From IMG/VR virus record IMGVR_UViG_3300033291_000002, positions 1-45,327 of that record: 45,327 nucleotides of DNA; one strand, written 5' to 3'. Under the pieces are notes generated by a model, which was given only the letters and a program-made list of their open reading frames with translations, was not told the origin of the DNA and did not search any database. Shown here one piece after another: positions 26,880 to 43,731 of the stretch. The DNA comes from a virus. Position numbers and translations under genes: made by a program. Each line of letters begins with the position of its first letter. The first letter of the stretch is position 1.

Positions 26880-27194
26880 TTACATGCAGTGAGTCGTGTT
26901 GCCAGTTGTGGTGCAGTTGACCGGTAGATCCGTCCCGAACTGGTACGAATGAGACGATGATTGCACCGGCTGAAGCTGTGGAGGTCTCATGCCAGGGGCC
27001 CAACCAGCACCAGTGCCAAGCCCCGCAGTGAGGAGAGCGCTGATACCACCTCCACCTTGGGCTCGCACGGCCTGGAGCCTGTCCCAATAATTGGGCGCGG
27101 AACCTTGAGCGGAGTATCCTGTATCCGCGGTTCGTAATTGCGGGCCAGCGCAGCCAGCAAGGGCGATTGTGGTGACGATCAATAGCTTTTTCAT
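26880..27194 (-). CDS. Small lipoprotein
   Basis: A 104-residue protein starting 'MKKLLIVTTIALAGCAGPQ', a canonical lipoprotein signal with an LAGC lipobox (Cys at residue 15). The mature part is polar with Gly, Gln and Ser ('LQAVRAQGGGGISALLTAGL'), ending in a Cys pair ('VNCTTTGNTTHC') that may form a disulfide in the periplasm. A phage lipoprotein outside the lysis block can act in superinfection exclusion or lysogenic conversion (T5 Llp and phi80 Cor are known cases), but there is no similarity that proves it here. Confidence 0.65.
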   Translation of the reverse strand: MKKLLIVTTIALAGCAGPQLRTADTGYSAQGSAPNYWDRLQAVRAQGGGGISALLTAGLGTGAGWAPGMRPPQLQPVQSSSHSYQFGTDLPVNCTTTGNTTHCM

Positions 27195-27196
27195 GA

Positions 27197-27358
27197 TTAA
27201 CCCCGTGCGTGACTGTGGCACCTGACAAATGTCGGGTACACTTCTTGGCCTAAAAATCGGGCCACTGTTTCGATGGCCCTCGGGTGCTTGTCCCACAGCT
27301 CGCTGTCCACGAAAAGTGTTTTCACGACTATGATTGAGACTAGGTAATTTCTGATCAT
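27197..27358 (-). CDS. Hypothetical protein (53 aa)
   Basis: A 53-residue protein ('MIRNYLVSIIVVKTLFVDSE' then 'WDKHPRAIETVARFLGQEVY'). It overlaps the nuclease stop by 4 bp and has CAGGAG upstream, so it is read together with the nuclease. The DELW-x-KHPRA part hints at the same small family as the 112-residue protein downstream, which has 'FWETNPHAFDHIMQFI': both place a Trp, His/Asn, Pro, Ala motif before a helix. That similarity is visual and weak. Confidence 0.5.
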   Translation of the reverse strand: MIRNYLVSIIVVKTLFVDSELWDKHPRAIETVARFLGQEVYPTFVRCHSHARG

Positions 27359-27852
27359 TTTTTCACAAGCTCCTGGATTAGGCGCTTTGTTTCTTGCACG
27401 TCGCGCGCAACCAGCACACGTCTCTGATTTTCCTTTAGCCAACTGAGCGCTCCAGGACGAACGCCGTCACCCAGAACAATCAGAAGGGGTTTGACATTTT
27501 CTGGAAGTTCCTGAAGCGTAAGGAGCCAGAACACAAGCTTCTCATCGACACTTCCAGCCGATGCCTGCCATTTCATCTCGATCAGGCCAAACTGATCTTT
27601 GTTCAGGCGTATCATAAAGTCAGCCTTGAACGGCACCCGAAATATGCTGTTGAACGCTGGCAATTGTCGATAAACGATGCCTGGTAACACTGCATCTTTA
27701 AGGTCAAATGCAGCCCTCACCATTGCGCGGGAAGCTTGTTTCTCGGCCTTTGTTTCTTCACGGAAGCCGTGCGATACAAGCATATTTAGGATCAATTGCT
27801 CTCCCGTTGCTCCAGCTGCATTGGCGGTAGCGCCACCTTGCGGACGGTTCAT
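27355..27852 (-). CDS. PD-(D/E)XK nuclease, restriction endonuclease-like
   Basis: A 165-residue protein. The core motif reads D78 ('FKADFMI') then E92-M-K94 ('GLIEMKWQ'), the D...E-x-K triad of PD-(D/E)XK nucleases, followed by 'ASAGSVDEKLVFWL', a segment of the sort seen in restriction-type and repair-type members. It overlaps the methyltransferase by 4 bp (ATGA) and has GGGAGAG upstream. Gene coupling with a DNA methyltransferase suggests a restriction enzyme or a modification-guided nuclease. Superfamily call is good; the restriction role is inference. Confidence 0.7.
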   Translation of the reverse strand: MNRPQGGATANAAGATGEQLILNMLVSHGFREETKAEKQASRAMVRAAFDLKDAVLPGIVYRQLPAFNSIFRVPFKADFMIRLNKDQFGLIEMKWQASAGSVDEKLVFWLLTLQELPENVKPLLIVLGDGVRPGALSWLKENQRRVLVARDVQETKRLIQELVKK

Positions 27853-28430
27853 GACCACACTCTCCCGATTGCCGGACTGTTGAATTTTCGCCCAAATTGT
27901 TTTCGGGCATCCCGGCGTTCTTGTGAAGTACCAGCCTGAAACAAAACAAAGGCTTGCCCGCGAGTGTTGCTCGATATGGTTTTTCCATCTGCGTTTTCGA
28001 AACCGATCCTTCCATGCGTCAAGCAAAGCGCAACGCATCCTGGGTGCCCGGTCAATGCTGCCCACCAGGTTGTATCGGTTGCATTGTTCACAAGCACAAT
28101 GCCACGTCTGAACTTCCCTTGATCAAACGCTGTAGTAAACGCTTGAACCGCGAGAGCACACATCCCCTTTGAATACGGCGGATTCATGAAAACGGTACTG
28201 ACTACCGGCCACGTGGTTGTTAGGGCATTGTCAGAGACCGTGAAGTAATGTTCAGCTTTTACTGTGGCTTGTGCCGCATCGGAGGAAAAAGGGTCCAGTC
28301 CTATGGTGCCACCAAGCGCCTCTCGCACCAGCGAAAGGTATTTTTTTGGCGTGAACCATGCGTCGGAATCTCGCTCGCCACCTGGCTTGGAGCCGATATA
28401 CGCAAGCTTGTTTCTGTCTGCAGTCGTCAT
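27849..28430 (-). CDS. Phage DNA N6-adenine methyltransferase (Dam, T1-type)
   Basis: A 193-residue enzyme that would transfer a methyl group from S-adenosylmethionine to adenine in DNA. Hallmarks: 'DAWFTPKKYLSLVREALG' at the N-terminus, the SAM-binding 'GLDPFSSDAAQA' (about residues 44-55) and the catalytic 'MNPPYSKG' (N83-P-P-Y86), as in the Dam family of phage T1 (PF05869). Length (about 170-200) is normal for the family. The ATG follows GAGGATTTCGAA and lies 50 bp downstream of a perfect promoter. Methylation may protect phage DNA against host or phage-encoded restriction. The target site cannot be read from sequence. Confidence 0.88.
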   Translation of the reverse strand: MTTADRNKLAYIGSKPGGERDSDAWFTPKKYLSLVREALGGTIGLDPFSSDAAQATVKAEHYFTVSDNALTTTWPVVSTVFMNPPYSKGMCALAVQAFTTAFDQGKFRRGIVLVNNATDTTWWAALTGHPGCVALCLTHGRIGFENADGKTISSNTRGQAFVLFQAGTSQERRDARKQFGRKFNSPAIGRVWS

Positions 28431-28479
28431 TTCGAAATCCTCGATTAATCTTACCTGCTCCCGAACGGGAACGGGTATG

Positions 28480-28508
28480 ATTATATTTCAGGAAACAATC
28501 CTTGTCAA
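28480..28508 (-). promoter_or_regulatory. Perfect-consensus sigma70 promoter
   Basis: On the minus strand TTGACA (28503-28508) and TATAAT (28480-28485) are exactly 17 bp apart, matching the consensus in all 12 positions. It is the strongest promoter I can see in the window and drives the methyltransferase/nuclease operon independently. A short dyad (CCCG/CGGG, 28461-28476) lies just downstream in the expected leader. Confidence 0.88.
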
Positions 28509-28559: not shown

Positions 28560-28829
28560 CTAGTCATGCTCAACATCACAGCACATTGTTGCTTGAGATG
28601 CGCCTACCAGAAGCACACCTCTGCGTTCTTTCGGTAATCGCAGCCACTTCCTGAAACATCTCGTTAACGCTTCTTCTTCTGAGTCTGATGGAGGGATGCC
28701 CAACACCGTATCCTCTAAGCTGTCAGACGTGGTTGACCGGAGGTATCCGTACAAGTGCGTAGCCTTTATGTCATCCTCGTCGTAACAGCTCGCCCAACAA
28801 TGCCAGATTGGGTAACCGTTAATGTGCAT
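28560..28829 (-). CDS. Hypothetical protein
   Basis: An 89-residue protein of unknown family, with a Trp/Cys-rich N-terminus ('MHINGYPIWHCWASCYDEDD') and a charged C-terminal part ('EEEALTRCFRKWLRLPKERR'). Starting at 28829 it overlaps its upstream neighbour by 11 bp. It is the last gene before the methyltransferase promoter. Confidence 0.5.
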   Translation of the reverse strand: MHINGYPIWHCWASCYDEDDIKATHLYGYLRSTTSDSLEDTVLGIPPSDSEEEALTRCFRKWLRLPKERRGVLLVGASQATMCCDVEHD

Positions 28830-29121
28830 CTTGCTCACCCAATATCTCAGCAGCATACTTGCGTGCACGACGCGGCATAGCCTCGATCAAAACGTGTGCG
28901 AAAATCTTGCACAGCTCTTCTTCAATTTCGTCTCGCACTTCCGTGCCCTGGGATTCCGCAATAGACGCCAGCCCCTCGTACATTCTCACCTTGGATTGAA
29001 GCAGCGTGTATTCCAGTAAGCCCAAGTCGCTCCACGTTCTGTGGAATCTGTACTCCGTTACCCCATTGTTTTTAAGGATGCTCTGCGCGTTGTGATATGC
29101 GTTGTTTGCTTGTGTGTTCAT
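28819..29121 (-). CDS. Hypothetical helical protein
   Basis: A 100-residue, mainly helical protein ('NAQSILKNNGVTEYRFHRTW', then 'LIEAMPRRARKYAAEILGEQ'). AGGTGACAAG precedes the ATG at 29121, which decides against a longer start. Overlaps the next upstream gene by 4 bp. No family is recognised. Confidence 0.55.
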   Translation of the reverse strand: MNTQANNAYHNAQSILKNNGVTEYRFHRTWSDLGLLEYTLLQSKVRMYEGLASIAESQGTEVRDEIEEELCKIFAHVLIEAMPRRARKYAAEILGEQDAH

Positions 29122-29764: not shown

Positions 29765-30407
29765 GTTCTTTCATCCTCATGTTGATTTGGCGCTGCAAAA
29801 CGCCTTTGAGTTGGCACAATTTGGCCAGTTCTTCTGGGAGGCGATGTACGCTGTTGCGAGCGAGCTGCTCGCGTTTTGTGATCGCCTCTAGGTTTTCAAT
29901 TCTGATGTCGGTTTTGTCGCCGTTGCGAAATACGATATAGCGCCCCTCTGGGATCTGGCCATAGTGCTCAATCCATATGAGTCGGTGGACGCCGACCCAG
30001 TCTTTGCACGTATGCCCGGTATCTGCTTCCTTGCGCTCAAGGTATCCGCCATCATTTATTCGCTCGGCTCCAACTGGGAGCCAGTTGTGCGGTTTTGATC
30101 CAGGCTTGAACTGTGCTGCCCGTGCTCGGCCGCCTGGGTCAAAGCCCTTTTTGCCCTTATTATGAGGCGTGCTCCCTTTCTTAAATTGTGTTGCGCGTCC
30201 AGGGTTATTACCTGACTTCCAACCTGGGCCATTTGGGCCGGCCATGTACTCTGCGCTCTTGTGCAAACCAAGATCAAAAGCTTTCGTGCATACGCTTTTA
30301 ATCGTGCGTCCGAAGCGCTCGGCCAGCTCATTGGTCGGCGTGTCCTGGTAATCCCTTATCAGGTCAGAGACTTCGCTTTGCGTCCATGGTTTGCGGGACA
30401 TGGTCAT
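29754..30407 (-). CDS. HNH homing-type endonuclease with N-terminal helix-turn-helix
   Basis: A 217-residue protein. Residues 5-50 look like a Myb/HTH DNA-binding unit ('WTQSEVSDLIRDYQDTPTNE', 'RFGRTIKSVCTKAFDLGL'), a central basic stretch repeats 'FKKGSTPHNKGKKGFDPGGR', and residues 130-200 hold an HNH-like fold: 'GVHRLIWIEHYG' and 'NGDKTDIRIENLEAI'. The second His of the classical motif is missing ('IVFRNGD'), as in some phage HNH relatives. It overlaps the clamp stop by 4 bp. It may be a free-standing homing nuclease beside dnaN or a packaging/repair nuclease. Confidence 0.7.
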   Translation of the reverse strand: MTMSRKPWTQSEVSDLIRDYQDTPTNELAERFGRTIKSVCTKAFDLGLHKSAEYMAGPNGPGWKSGNNPGRATQFKKGSTPHNKGKKGFDPGGRARAAQFKPGSKPHNWLPVGAERINDGGYLERKEADTGHTCKDWVGVHRLIWIEHYGQIPEGRYIVFRNGDKTDIRIENLEAITKREQLARNSVHRLPEELAKLCQLKGVLQRQINMRMKEREE

Positions 30408-31498
30408 AACCTCATTGGCATAACAACCGCGAATACGTTCACGTCATCATCTTGAGGATCTCCAGGCTCGACCAATAAGCTCACATTCGAGTCGGTTATT
30501 CCGATGCGCGCAACGTCGCCAATTGTGGCAAGTGCTTCTGTCATATAGGTCGAGTTTACTCCGATGACAACGGTCTCACCTTCGTATTCGGCTTCTACGC
30601 GATCAGATGATTCGCCCATATCAACGCTGCTTGATGCAATCTCAATATGGCTAGGGTTAAACTCGAGTCGTATTGATCGGTGCTGGTTTGCTGTCAGGGC
30701 TACCCTGCCGACTGCTTTTATCAGCACTTTTCCGTCTACTCGACAGGTGCCGTTGGGGCTCGGAATGGTTCTCCTCCACTCCGGATAGCGTCCATCGAGC
30801 AGTTTGGTTTCGATGGTGCAGCCTGGATACGACACGCGCGCGCTCCCGGAGCCATAAGCAAAGATAACATCGCCATCTACAGGTAGTGCAGACTCGATTA
30901 TCTGCGCTGAATGGCGCGGTAATATGATGCTGATTCCGTCTTGGTAATCACCGATCGCCTCGGCGGCATGTAGCCTATGGCCGTCCGTGCCACATGCCGT
31001 GAGCTTTCCGTCCTGTGACTCTAGATTGATTCCATTCAGGAAGTACCTTGCGTCATTTTTCGCGGCAGCAGGAAGCGTTGCCGCAATCATTCTCCGCAGC
31101 GTTTTTGCTCCGACTGAGATCTCCTGCATGCCGCTACGGTCCCGACTCTCTGGCCATTGCTCGGAGGGTAGGGTCGGCAAGCGCCAGCGGCTAGATCCGC
31201 TCGTAAGCGTGAGGCTGTTCTCGCCCACGCTGCACGTGATCTCCTCGCTCGGCGCTGCGGCGGCGATGGCCTTGAGTTTGTGAGCCGGTGCAGTCCAAGG
31301 GTGGGCCTGCTCAATGCCATCCAACTGGATGTCAACCGCCTGGGTGGTCTCAAGGTTGCTGCCGGAGATCCTCAGCGCTCCCTGAATCGGCTCGATTAGG
31401 GCATAGTCGAGGATCTGTAACGTGTTAGCGCGTGCGACGCAGGCAGTCACTTTGTCGAGCGCCATCCGTAGTTGGGATTTTGGGATACGCAGCTTCAC
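30404..31498 (-). CDS. dnaN: DNA polymerase III beta subunit, sliding clamp
   Basis: A 364-residue full-length clamp (E. coli DnaN has 366). It encircles DNA and holds the polymerase on its template. Signs: 'LRIPKSQLRMALDKVTACVA' and three repeated clamp domains, 'ARYFLNGINLESQDGKLTAC', 'GTDGHRLHAAEAIGD' with the 'DGHRL' segment of the beta-clamp pocket, and the C-terminal 'VFAVVMPMRL', the classic end. GTG start with GAGG upstream; it overlaps the helical-protein gene by 4 bp. Phage-encoded clamps are uncommon, and here no phage polymerase accompanies it, so it may redirect or stabilise host Pol III. Confidence 0.92.
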   Translation of the reverse strand: MKLRIPKSQLRMALDKVTACVARANTLQILDYALIEPIQGALRISGSNLETTQAVDIQLDGIEQAHPWTAPAHKLKAIAAAAPSEEITCSVGENSLTLTSGSSRWRLPTLPSEQWPESRDRSGMQEISVGAKTLRRMIAATLPAAAKNDARYFLNGINLESQDGKLTACGTDGHRLHAAEAIGDYQDGISIILPRHSAQIIESALPVDGDVIFAYGSGSARVSYPGCTIETKLLDGRYPEWRRTIPSPNGTCRVDGKVLIKAVGRVALTANQHRSIRLEFNPSHIEIASSSVDMGESSDRVEAEYEGETVVIGVNSTYMTEALATIGDVARIGITDSNVSLLVEPGDPQDDDVNVFAVVMPMRL

Positions 31499-41733: not shown

Positions 41734-41775
41734 AGGCCGCTGTTGAAAATTTAACAACTTATGTACAATAGTTAT

Positions 41776-43731
41776 ATGGAAACTACAGCAGACAAACTGA
41801 TGAGTGAATACATTCATCTATCAAAATATTCGAGGTGGTTGGCTGAAGACGTAAGGAGAGAGGTATCTTTCGCGGAGTCTGTAGATAGGCTTCGTGAATT
41901 CTGGAAGAGTAGATTACCAAGCTCACTTCTCAAAGATCTCGACGAAGCCTGTGACAGTATGGTTAAACTGGAAGTCATGGCGTCCATGAGAACTCTCATG
42001 ACAGCAGGACCAGCCCTTGAGAAGGAAAATATGGCAGGGTTCAACTGTGCGGCACATCGGATCGATTCAGTAATGTCGTTCGCGGAGATGTTTTACATCC
42101 TGATGTGCGGGACCGGAGATGGGTTCTCGGTTGAACGTCAGTACATTACAAAAATGTTACCTGATTTACCCGAAGCTCTGTTCCCGACCGAAACAACTAT
42201 TGTAGTTCATGACAGCAGGATTGGATGGGCTAAAGCCATTAAGCAGCTCATGACTATGCTCTATTCTGGTGAAATCCCAAAGTGGGATCTGTCTAAAGTA
42301 AGGCCAGAAGGGGCGCGATTGAAAACTTTTGGCGGTAGGGCATCAGGACCAGGGCCACTTAATTTGTTGATGGGCTTTATCGTATCGGTATTTAGTAATG
42401 CAGTGTCCGAAGGTAAAAACAAGCTCAACTCACTGGAATGCCATGATATCTGTTGCATGATATCAGATACTGTTCTCGCTGGCTCTGTAAGGAGGGCAGC
42501 TACGATTTCCTTCAGTAACCTAACTGACCAGCGGATGGCGAAGGCTAAGCGAGGTGACTTTCCCAAGTATCGCCACCTGGCAAACAACTCTGTGGCATAT
42601 ACAGAAAAACCTGATATGTCGGCGTTCCTGTTGGAGATGCTCAACTTACTGGAAGGGAAGAATGGCGAAAGGGGTATTGTCAATAAAAATGCCCTACATC
42701 GTAAAGCCGAGGCAACAGGACGTGAGCATAAAGGAGATTACCTACTTAACCCATGTGGGGAAGCTATACTCCGAGACACCGGAGGATTGTGCAATCTGTC
42801 GGAAGTTGTTATAAGACCAACAGATAATTTCGAGACTGTACTTCAAAAGGTTAAGCTAGCCACGTTCTTCGGTACAATACAAAGCACTCTGGAAAATTTT
42901 AACTTTGTTCGCAAAGTCTGGACAGATAATCAAAAAGAGGAGCGACTACTTGGAGTATCTCTTACTGGCATTCAGGACCATCCTTTTTTTTCCGCAAGAT
43001 CAGAGCTACTCGGACATGATGATGCTAGAGTCTTCCATGAATGGTTTGGCCACAGTGACCTTCGTGCAGCTCTAGTCCAAATGAAACTTAAGAGTATCGA
43101 AGAGAATGCGAGGGTGGCTGACATTATTGGAATAAACCATTCCAAGCAACGGACACTTGTTAAGCCGTCAGGTACAGTTAGCCAACTGGTTGGGTGTAGT
43201 TCTGGCATTCATCCTCGCTACTCGCCTTATTATCTACGAAGAGTTACGCAAGATCCGAAAGATCCGCTGACCTATGCCATGATCGACGCAGGTATACCCT
43301 ACGTTGAGAAATACAGCAAATACTATTTCAGCTTTCCAATCAAGTCTCCAGAAGATGCGGTTACAGTTAAAGATGTAACGGCACTTGAGCAGTTGGAGCT
43401 TTGGAAAATCTACCAAGAACATTGGTGTGAAGGGAACCCAAGCTGCACAATATATTATCACGGTGATGAATTCCTTAAGGTAATAAGCTGGGTTCATAGT
43501 AACTGGGATATTATAGGTGGCTTGAGTTTCTTCCCTGTTGATGATTTCGATTACGACAAAGACATTACACCTTACCTGGAGATAACTCAGGAAGAGTACT
43601 ATAAAGCCTTGCAGGTATTCCCTACCAATGTTGAATGGGAGTCGCTCCTTTCTAGGTACGAGGTTGATGACGGGTTCGATTTGTCAACTGGAAGAGAGAT
43701 CTCTTGTGCAGGAGGTAAGTGTGAATTTTAA
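41776..43731 (+). CDS. nrdJ: Adenosylcobalamin-dependent ribonucleoside-triphosphate reductase (class II)
   Basis: A 651-residue monomeric class II reductase that converts ribonucleotides to deoxyribonucleotides. The redox Cys are C91 ('GFNCAAHRI') and C339 ('LCNLSEVV'), the radical Cys is C327 in 'LNPCGEA', and the C-terminal shuttle pair is 'SCAGGKCEF'. The mid-part 'GTVSQLVGCSSGIHPRYSPY' is typical. Enzymes of this type in Lactobacillus have about 740 residues. Class II enzymes need vitamin B12 and no oxygen. It is AT-richer and less tightly packed than its neighbours; ribosome site before ATG is weak. A TTGAAA box upstream (41749) hints at a promoter. Confidence 0.9.
   Translation: METTADKLMSEYIHLSKYSRWLAEDVRREVSFAESVDRLREFWKSRLPSSLLKDLDEACDSMVKLEVMASMRTLMTAGPALEKENMAGFNCAAHRIDSVMSFAEMFYILMCGTGDGFSVERQYITKMLPDLPEALFPTETTIVVHDSRIGWAKAIKQLMTMLYSGEIPKWDLSKVRPEGARLKTFGGRASGPGPLNLLMGFIVSVFSNAVSEGKNKLNSLECHDICCMISDTVLAGSVRRAATISFSNLTDQRMAKAKRGDFPKYRHLANNSVAYTEKPDMSAFLLEMLNLLEGKNGERGIVNKNALHRKAEATGREHKGDYLLNPCGEAILRDTGGLCNLSEVVIRPTDNFETVLQKVKLATFFGTIQSTLENFNFVRKVWTDNQKEERLLGVSLTGIQDHPFFSARSELLGHDDARVFHEWFGHSDLRAALVQMKLKSIEENARVADIIGINHSKQRTLVKPSGTVSQLVGCSSGIHPRYSPYYLRRVTQDPKDPLTYAMIDAGIPYVEKYSKYYFSFPIKSPEDAVTVKDVTALEQLELWKIYQEHWCEGNPSCTIYYHGDEFLKVISWVHSNWDIIGGLSFFPVDDFDYDKDITPYLEITQEEYYKALQVFPTNVEWESLLSRYEVDDGFDLSTGREISCAGGKCEF

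Follow-up and report, generated by a model that had tools for sequence, protein, structure and literature searches.

Restriction-modification (R-M) systems that read GATC, as typified by DpnII, MboI and LlaDCHI, place adenine methyltransferases of the D12 family, the N6_N4 family or both beside a PD-(D/E)XK-like restriction endonuclease (PF04556) of about 300 aa. DpnII cuts only unmethylated GATC (PMC4081073). Complete virus-borne R-M systems with a GATC methyltransferase have been described in chloroviruses (CviAI) and Marseilleviridae (mel_015/016) (PMC7248222, PMC7253447); the chlorovirus system is thought to recycle host DNA, and the Marseilleviridae one to act against competing viruses (PMC7253447). 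Orphan adenine methyltransferases of the PF05869 family, among them those of phage T1 and the Vibrio phages JSF10 and K300, are common in phages and have no adjoining nuclease gene.

We analyzed an IMG/VR contig of 45,327 bp, the whole of which we call the window, in which a phage methyltransferase of this last family does have an adjoining nuclease, coupled to it by a gene overlap. As in DpnII-type systems, an adenine methyltransferase sits next to a PD-(D/E)XK-like endonuclease, but the window nuclease is only 165 aa long and PF05869 is unrelated to the DpnII-type methyltransferases. The chlorovirus and Marseilleviridae systems occur in viruses of eukaryotes and, as far as described, use a different endonuclease family, whereas here the carrier is a tailed phage and GATC is a predicted site. 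The contig encodes a terminase (phrog_15), portal, tape measure, sliding clamp, primase-helicase and nucleotide-metabolism proteins, and no integrase was present among the ORFs scanned in a non-exhaustive survey. Its 41761-43731 and 30404-31498 ORFs correspond to a class II (B12-dependent) ribonucleotide reductase-like protein and the phage’s own DNA polymerase sliding clamp.

The gene pair and its operon

The first gene (27849-28430, minus strand, ATG start) encodes a 193-aa N6-adenine DNA methyltransferase of the T1-Dam family (PF05869, phrog_111). It matches the Pfam Dam profile with 62 bits (E=7.4e-17; gathering cut-off 28.1), is homologous to T1 Dam by direct comparison (E about 4e-6) and contains LDPFSS and NPPY, the latter in the (D/N)PPY form of N6-adenine motif IV, supporting the T1-Dam-type assignment that a sequence-only reading of this DNA had made from these motifs. 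As it scores 61.1 bits against the NCBIfam TIGR01712 equivalog model, below the cut-off of 97.05, we class it on its profile scores as a PF05869 family member and not as that equivalog. Related methyltransferases in three Vibrio phages (JSF10, K300 and PS25B.1) have no such nuclease adjoining; because these relatives stand alone, the nuclease is not ordinary baggage of PF05869 phage methyltransferases.

The second gene (27355-27852, minus strand, ATG start) encodes the 165-aa PD-(D/E)XK nuclease, a predicted type II restriction endonuclease, which matches PF20472 (PDDEXK_11) with 69.7 bits (E=2.9e-19; gathering cut-off 23.7). All 63 homologues also match this family above its gathering score. 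Its catalytic residues are D78, E92 and K94, accompanied by Q96. E92, K94, Q96, G100, S101, E104, K105, G128 and W138 are invariant in the 63 aligned nucleases, and position 78 is E in 68% and D in 31% of them. The active site read earlier from the translation (D78, E92-x-K94) is therefore borne out by the residues themselves, the family match and the invariance of E92 and K94. Searches with the window nuclease of PADLOC (including its REase_II models), NCBIfam and PHROGs returned no match, and of the family’s 63 members two match a PADLOC REase_II model and none has a match in NCBIfam. Our literature search found no paper naming PDDEXK_11 or PF20472; members may still figure in REBASE, perhaps as putative entries.

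Neither protein has a match in the PDB by sequence. An AlphaFold2 model of the nuclease (family alignment as input; pLDDT 92.2, pTM 0.86) has a helix and a three-stranded core bearing D78 and E92/K94, followed by helices and strands with no extra domain, a bare PD-(D/E)XK core as modeled. Compared with the PDB by fold, the model has no match at E<=0.001, and its weak matches are mixed: a NucS-like repair endonuclease, SfsA, FANCM, MspJI, AspBHI and PspGI. Foldseek against viral models returned distant PD-(D/E)XK proteins only. The sequence-only reading had held that a fold placing the nuclease in a repair family would speak against it, and no such placement emerged.

MspJI and AspBHI are modification-dependent, in keeping with a type IV-like enzyme directed at methylated DNA of the host or of rivals, the methyltransferase then having some other role, a variant also raised by the earlier reading. 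We consider this most improbable, because a nuclease needing its own operon’s mark would attack its own genome: an m6A-dependent enzyme co-expressed with an m6A methyltransferase is self-destructive unless the two sites differ. Moreover, the 165-aa model has no modification-sensing domain, and DpnII, the recognized kin, acts on the unmethylated site.

The two genes overlap by exactly 4 bp at an ATGA (27849-27852, minus strand) that holds the methyltransferase stop and the nuclease start, as first noticed in the sequence-only reading. Upstream, on the same strand, a TTGACA -35 hexamer (28503-28508) and a TATAAT -10 hexamer (28480-28485) are separated by a 17-bp spacer. This promoter (28508-28480) agrees with the sigma-70 consensus at 12 of 12 positions, is the sole such match in the 45 kb and was reproduced in 0 of 100 shuffles, so its description as a perfect-consensus promoter stands. 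Possible ribosome-binding sites, read from the sequence, are GAGG (28439-28442, minus strand), 8 nt upstream of the methyltransferase ATG, and GGGAGAG (27860-27866, minus strand), in the 3' end of the methyltransferase gene and 7 nt upstream of the nuclease ATG. Downstream of the nuclease lies a weak possible intrinsic terminator (27259-27279, minus strand) with a 7-bp stem, five of its pairs GC, followed by GATTTTTAGG (fold z=-1.52). A CCCG/CGGG dyad is present in the leader, but its proposed role as an operator or control site is not supported, the leader folding no better than chance (z=-0.43). Consistent with the earlier remark that no controller protein is visible, a Pfam scan of the two flanking ORFs (28560-28868 and 26880-27296) and of 28819-29121 found no regulator.

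Linkage of PDDEXK_11 nucleases to adenine methyltransferases

Relatives of the nuclease were absent at E<=0.01 from the 50,697 phage records of INPHARED, a single plasmid (Alicyclobacillus p1) proved to encode one, and viral contigs probed with the single-sequence nuclease or the clamp gave no match. A family search with an alignment of three nucleases as probe yielded 58 bacterial and 21 viral loci. One viral locus, on a 9.4-kb phage contig (L003) that carries a helicase and a terminase of phrog_38, against phrog_15 in the window, has the same gene pair with the same 4-bp overlap (564-567). When the window ORFs were compared with 6.6 kb of this contig, the pair alone matched, with 71% identity for the methyltransferase and 57% for the nuclease. 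Across both genes, 67-85% of first and second codon positions agree, while agreement at third positions (42% and 33%) is close to random, from which it follows that both proteins have been under purifying selection. This comparison of sequences shows that the pair was transferred as a unit between unrelated phages, and that the association of methyltransferase and nuclease is not accidental.

To count neighbors across the family we used non-redundant loci in which the nuclease gene has 900 bp or more of flanking sequence on either side, and scored a partner within 300 bp. The loci were chosen by nuclease sequence alone, so the neighbor counts are unbiased. An adenine methyltransferase lay within this distance at 35 of 39 bacterial genome loci, at 9/10 loci in an unbiased sample (369 genomes from a single class), and at half of the viral loci (3/6), against a background of 1/113 for other ORFs of the same bacterial loci. 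The family is patchily distributed (11 of the 369 sampled genomes), and plasmids and phages also carry members. On the Alicyclobacillus plasmid p1, for example, only 2 bp separate the nuclease gene from the Dam methyltransferase gene upstream of it, whose family is unrelated to PF05869, and two further contigs with terminase genes (L086 and L095) carry the nuclease with a D12 partner.

The partners come from three unrelated families: D12 (PF02086), CcrM-like N6_N4_Mtase (PF01555; E=6e-58 against CcrM) and PF05869. Mapped on the nuclease tree, the partner state changes at least nine times, with 'none' counted as a state, and PF05869 partners occur at three places (the window with L003, L025 and L094). 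The methyltransferase gene mostly comes first; the order is reversed in L025 and L094. Adjacency and joint inheritance of endonuclease and methyltransferase, by which type II R-M systems are recognized, were thus both found, and to judge from the sequences the varied partners and varied order are the mark of an exchangeable R-M pair. A housekeeping nuclease would not readily show this kind of swapping between unrelated partners, whereas an R-M system would be expected to.

Some members have no adjoining methyltransferase (L048, L061, L073, L075, L101 and the phages L078, L083 and L090), and searches of the two larger phage records, L078 (82.7 kb) and L091 (67.7 kb), for a set of methyltransferase families gave no match; for these reasons PDDEXK_11 proteins may also do something other than restriction. 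In phages, genes without an adjoining methyltransferase (L078 4818-5318, L083 4860-5339 and L085 805-1305) lie between exonuclease/UDG or ThyX genes on one side and a family A DNA polymerase gene on the other, which may point to a further role of PDDEXK_11 besides restriction. Two cyanobacterial loci, L048 and L056, encode near-identical nucleases; a D12 methyltransferase lies 182 bp from the L056 gene, on the opposite strand, and L048 has none nearby, possibly by recent loss or rearrangement of the partner. The genome shared by L101 and L025 holds a second, divergent PDDEXK_11-like ORF (L101 1438-1830; IECKSQ..GSAEEK); a methyltransferase was not detected within 1 kb of it, and a similar ORF in L104 adjoins a D12 methyltransferase.

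The phage copies beside DNA polymerase A, ThyX and SbcCD-like genes, the repair endonuclease and FANCM among the weak fold matches, and the frequency of orphan PF05869 methyltransferases in phages would all suit a replication or recombination enzyme, for instance a Holliday-junction or branch nuclease, that lies beside a protective orphan methyltransferase by chance. We judge this unlikely. Chance would not readily account for the excess of adjoining methyltransferases over background in both bacterial samples, for three unrelated partner families, or for a second phage fragment that has only the pair in common with the window, and the methyltransferase-less phage copies lie across a supported tree split from the window nuclease.

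Predicted recognition site

Three lines of comparison bear on the site of the pair, which on balance we predict to be GATC. The first concerns the D12 partners. The partner on the Alicyclobacillus plasmid shares about 55% of its residues with E. coli Dam (E=3e-96), which in Dam-DNA structures contacts GATC through K9, Y119, N120, L122, R124 and P134. Among 53 D12 partners aligned over the DNA-reading region, N120, R124 and P134 never vary, 51 have L122, and all have Y or F at position 119; K occupies position 9 in 53 of 54. In sequence the D12 partners resemble Dam, GATC-reading residues included.

The second links these enzymes to the window’s own family. The nuclease of the bacterial locus L025 is nested (support 99/97) with those of L045 and L102, two loci where the partner has 52-54% identity to Dam, and the L025 methyltransferase is itself a PF05869 enzyme, 47% identical to that of the window. 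Because the halves of an R-M system share a site and the L025 nuclease lies among Dam-partnered ones, the simplest reading of these relationships is that the window-type PF05869 subfamily marks GATC. The T1 enzyme, to which the window methyltransferase is distantly related, is GATC-specific. For the window nuclease, transfer of specificity from Dam-partnered relatives is weak because a very long branch, of 3.5 changes per site, leads to the pair it forms with L003.

The third is kinship to DpnII. PF04556 is matched by 11 of the 63 family members (best 4e-9), the window nuclease itself giving no match, and the PDDEXK_11 and DpnII profiles align over the catalytic core with hhalign (E=2e-5, probability 77%), with D/E78, E92, GS and DGxG colinear. 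These profiles make the GATC-specific DpnII family the closest named endonuclease family, a remote relative of which the window nuclease is not a member. Most PDDEXK_11 relatives use the same two partner families as the DpnII type, D12 and DpnA/CcrM-like; the active site differs in having E-x-K where DpnII has E-x-N. In an alignment of the DpnII family (L119 and L124-L129), E225-x-N227 is invariant, asparagine replacing the usual catalytic lysine.

Small enzymes tied to a methyltransferase by function or gene order include MutH and Vsr, and the Dam-like partners with their GATC-reading residues would also fit a methylation-directed repair module that nicks un- or hemimethylated sites as MutH does, or a mismatch like Vsr beside Dcm. 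That reading seems to us very unlikely, given the patchy distribution with plasmid and phage occurrence, the interchange with CcrM-like partners and a Pfam kinship to DpnII rather than to MutH.

PDDEXK_11 nucleases are paired with CcrM-like N6_N4 methyltransferases at L028, L031, L037, L038, L039, L043, L046, L055, L057 and L060, in Treponema, Brocadia and others. This partnership suggests GANTC, not GATC, as the predicted site of these members, and one nuclease family may therefore read two sites. The phage enzymes phiLM21_p027 and phi3LM21_p21 are GANTC-specific (PMC5537653); the window methyltransferase has no detectable similarity to either, and we rejected GANTC for it. GATC shows no depletion in the phage (274 sites against 295 expected), a count that is uninformative if the DNA is methylated. 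The lowest of the 64 six-mer palindromes in the window are GGATCC (0 against 9.8 expected) and GAGCTC (3 against 17.4).

Proposed action and meaning of the pair

The family-wide linkage with partner swapping, the pair shared with a second phage and the remote kinship to DpnII all back the original proposal of a phage-borne R-M pair: with these comparisons in hand, the two genes are in all likelihood a compact type II R-M system of a tailed phage, most probably acting at GATC. We propose that the methyltransferase, driven by a strong promoter of its own, would be the first product and would methylate adenine within a short palindromic site, GATC being the most probable, on phage DNA and perhaps on host DNA too. 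The nuclease, a small PD-(D/E)XK restriction enzyme, would be translated by coupling at the 4-bp overlap and would cut the same site when unmethylated; strong promoter, gene order and coupling together would put protection before cutting.

During infection, unmarked DNA would be destroyed, whether of a superinfecting rival or of a host without Dam methylation, with the phage protected. In a Dam+ host only unmarked incoming DNA would be cut; in a Dam- host the chromosome would be cut too unless marked in time. By analogy with the chlorovirus and Marseilleviridae systems, recycling of host DNA or attack on rivals could be the role of the pair.

From its sequence relationships PDDEXK_11 looks like a widespread restriction enzyme missed by annotation pipelines, which now label its members merely 'PD-(D/E)XK nuclease'. 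The broader picture, for which we see about even chances, is of largely unannotated minimal type II restriction enzymes, broadly distributed and repeatedly exchanged among three unrelated adenine methyltransferase families, with a self-promoted two-gene cassette that passes from one phage to another, unrelated one and arms phages against the DNA of rivals or hosts. If true, this would mean one more restriction-enzyme family, a minimal one, to include when R-M systems are counted, and would provide a phage counterpart to virus-encoded GATC R-M, so far best known from chloroviruses and Marseilleviridae. Three unrelated methyltransferases swapped around one nuclease would also offer a natural test of how the halves of R-M systems keep matched specificity.
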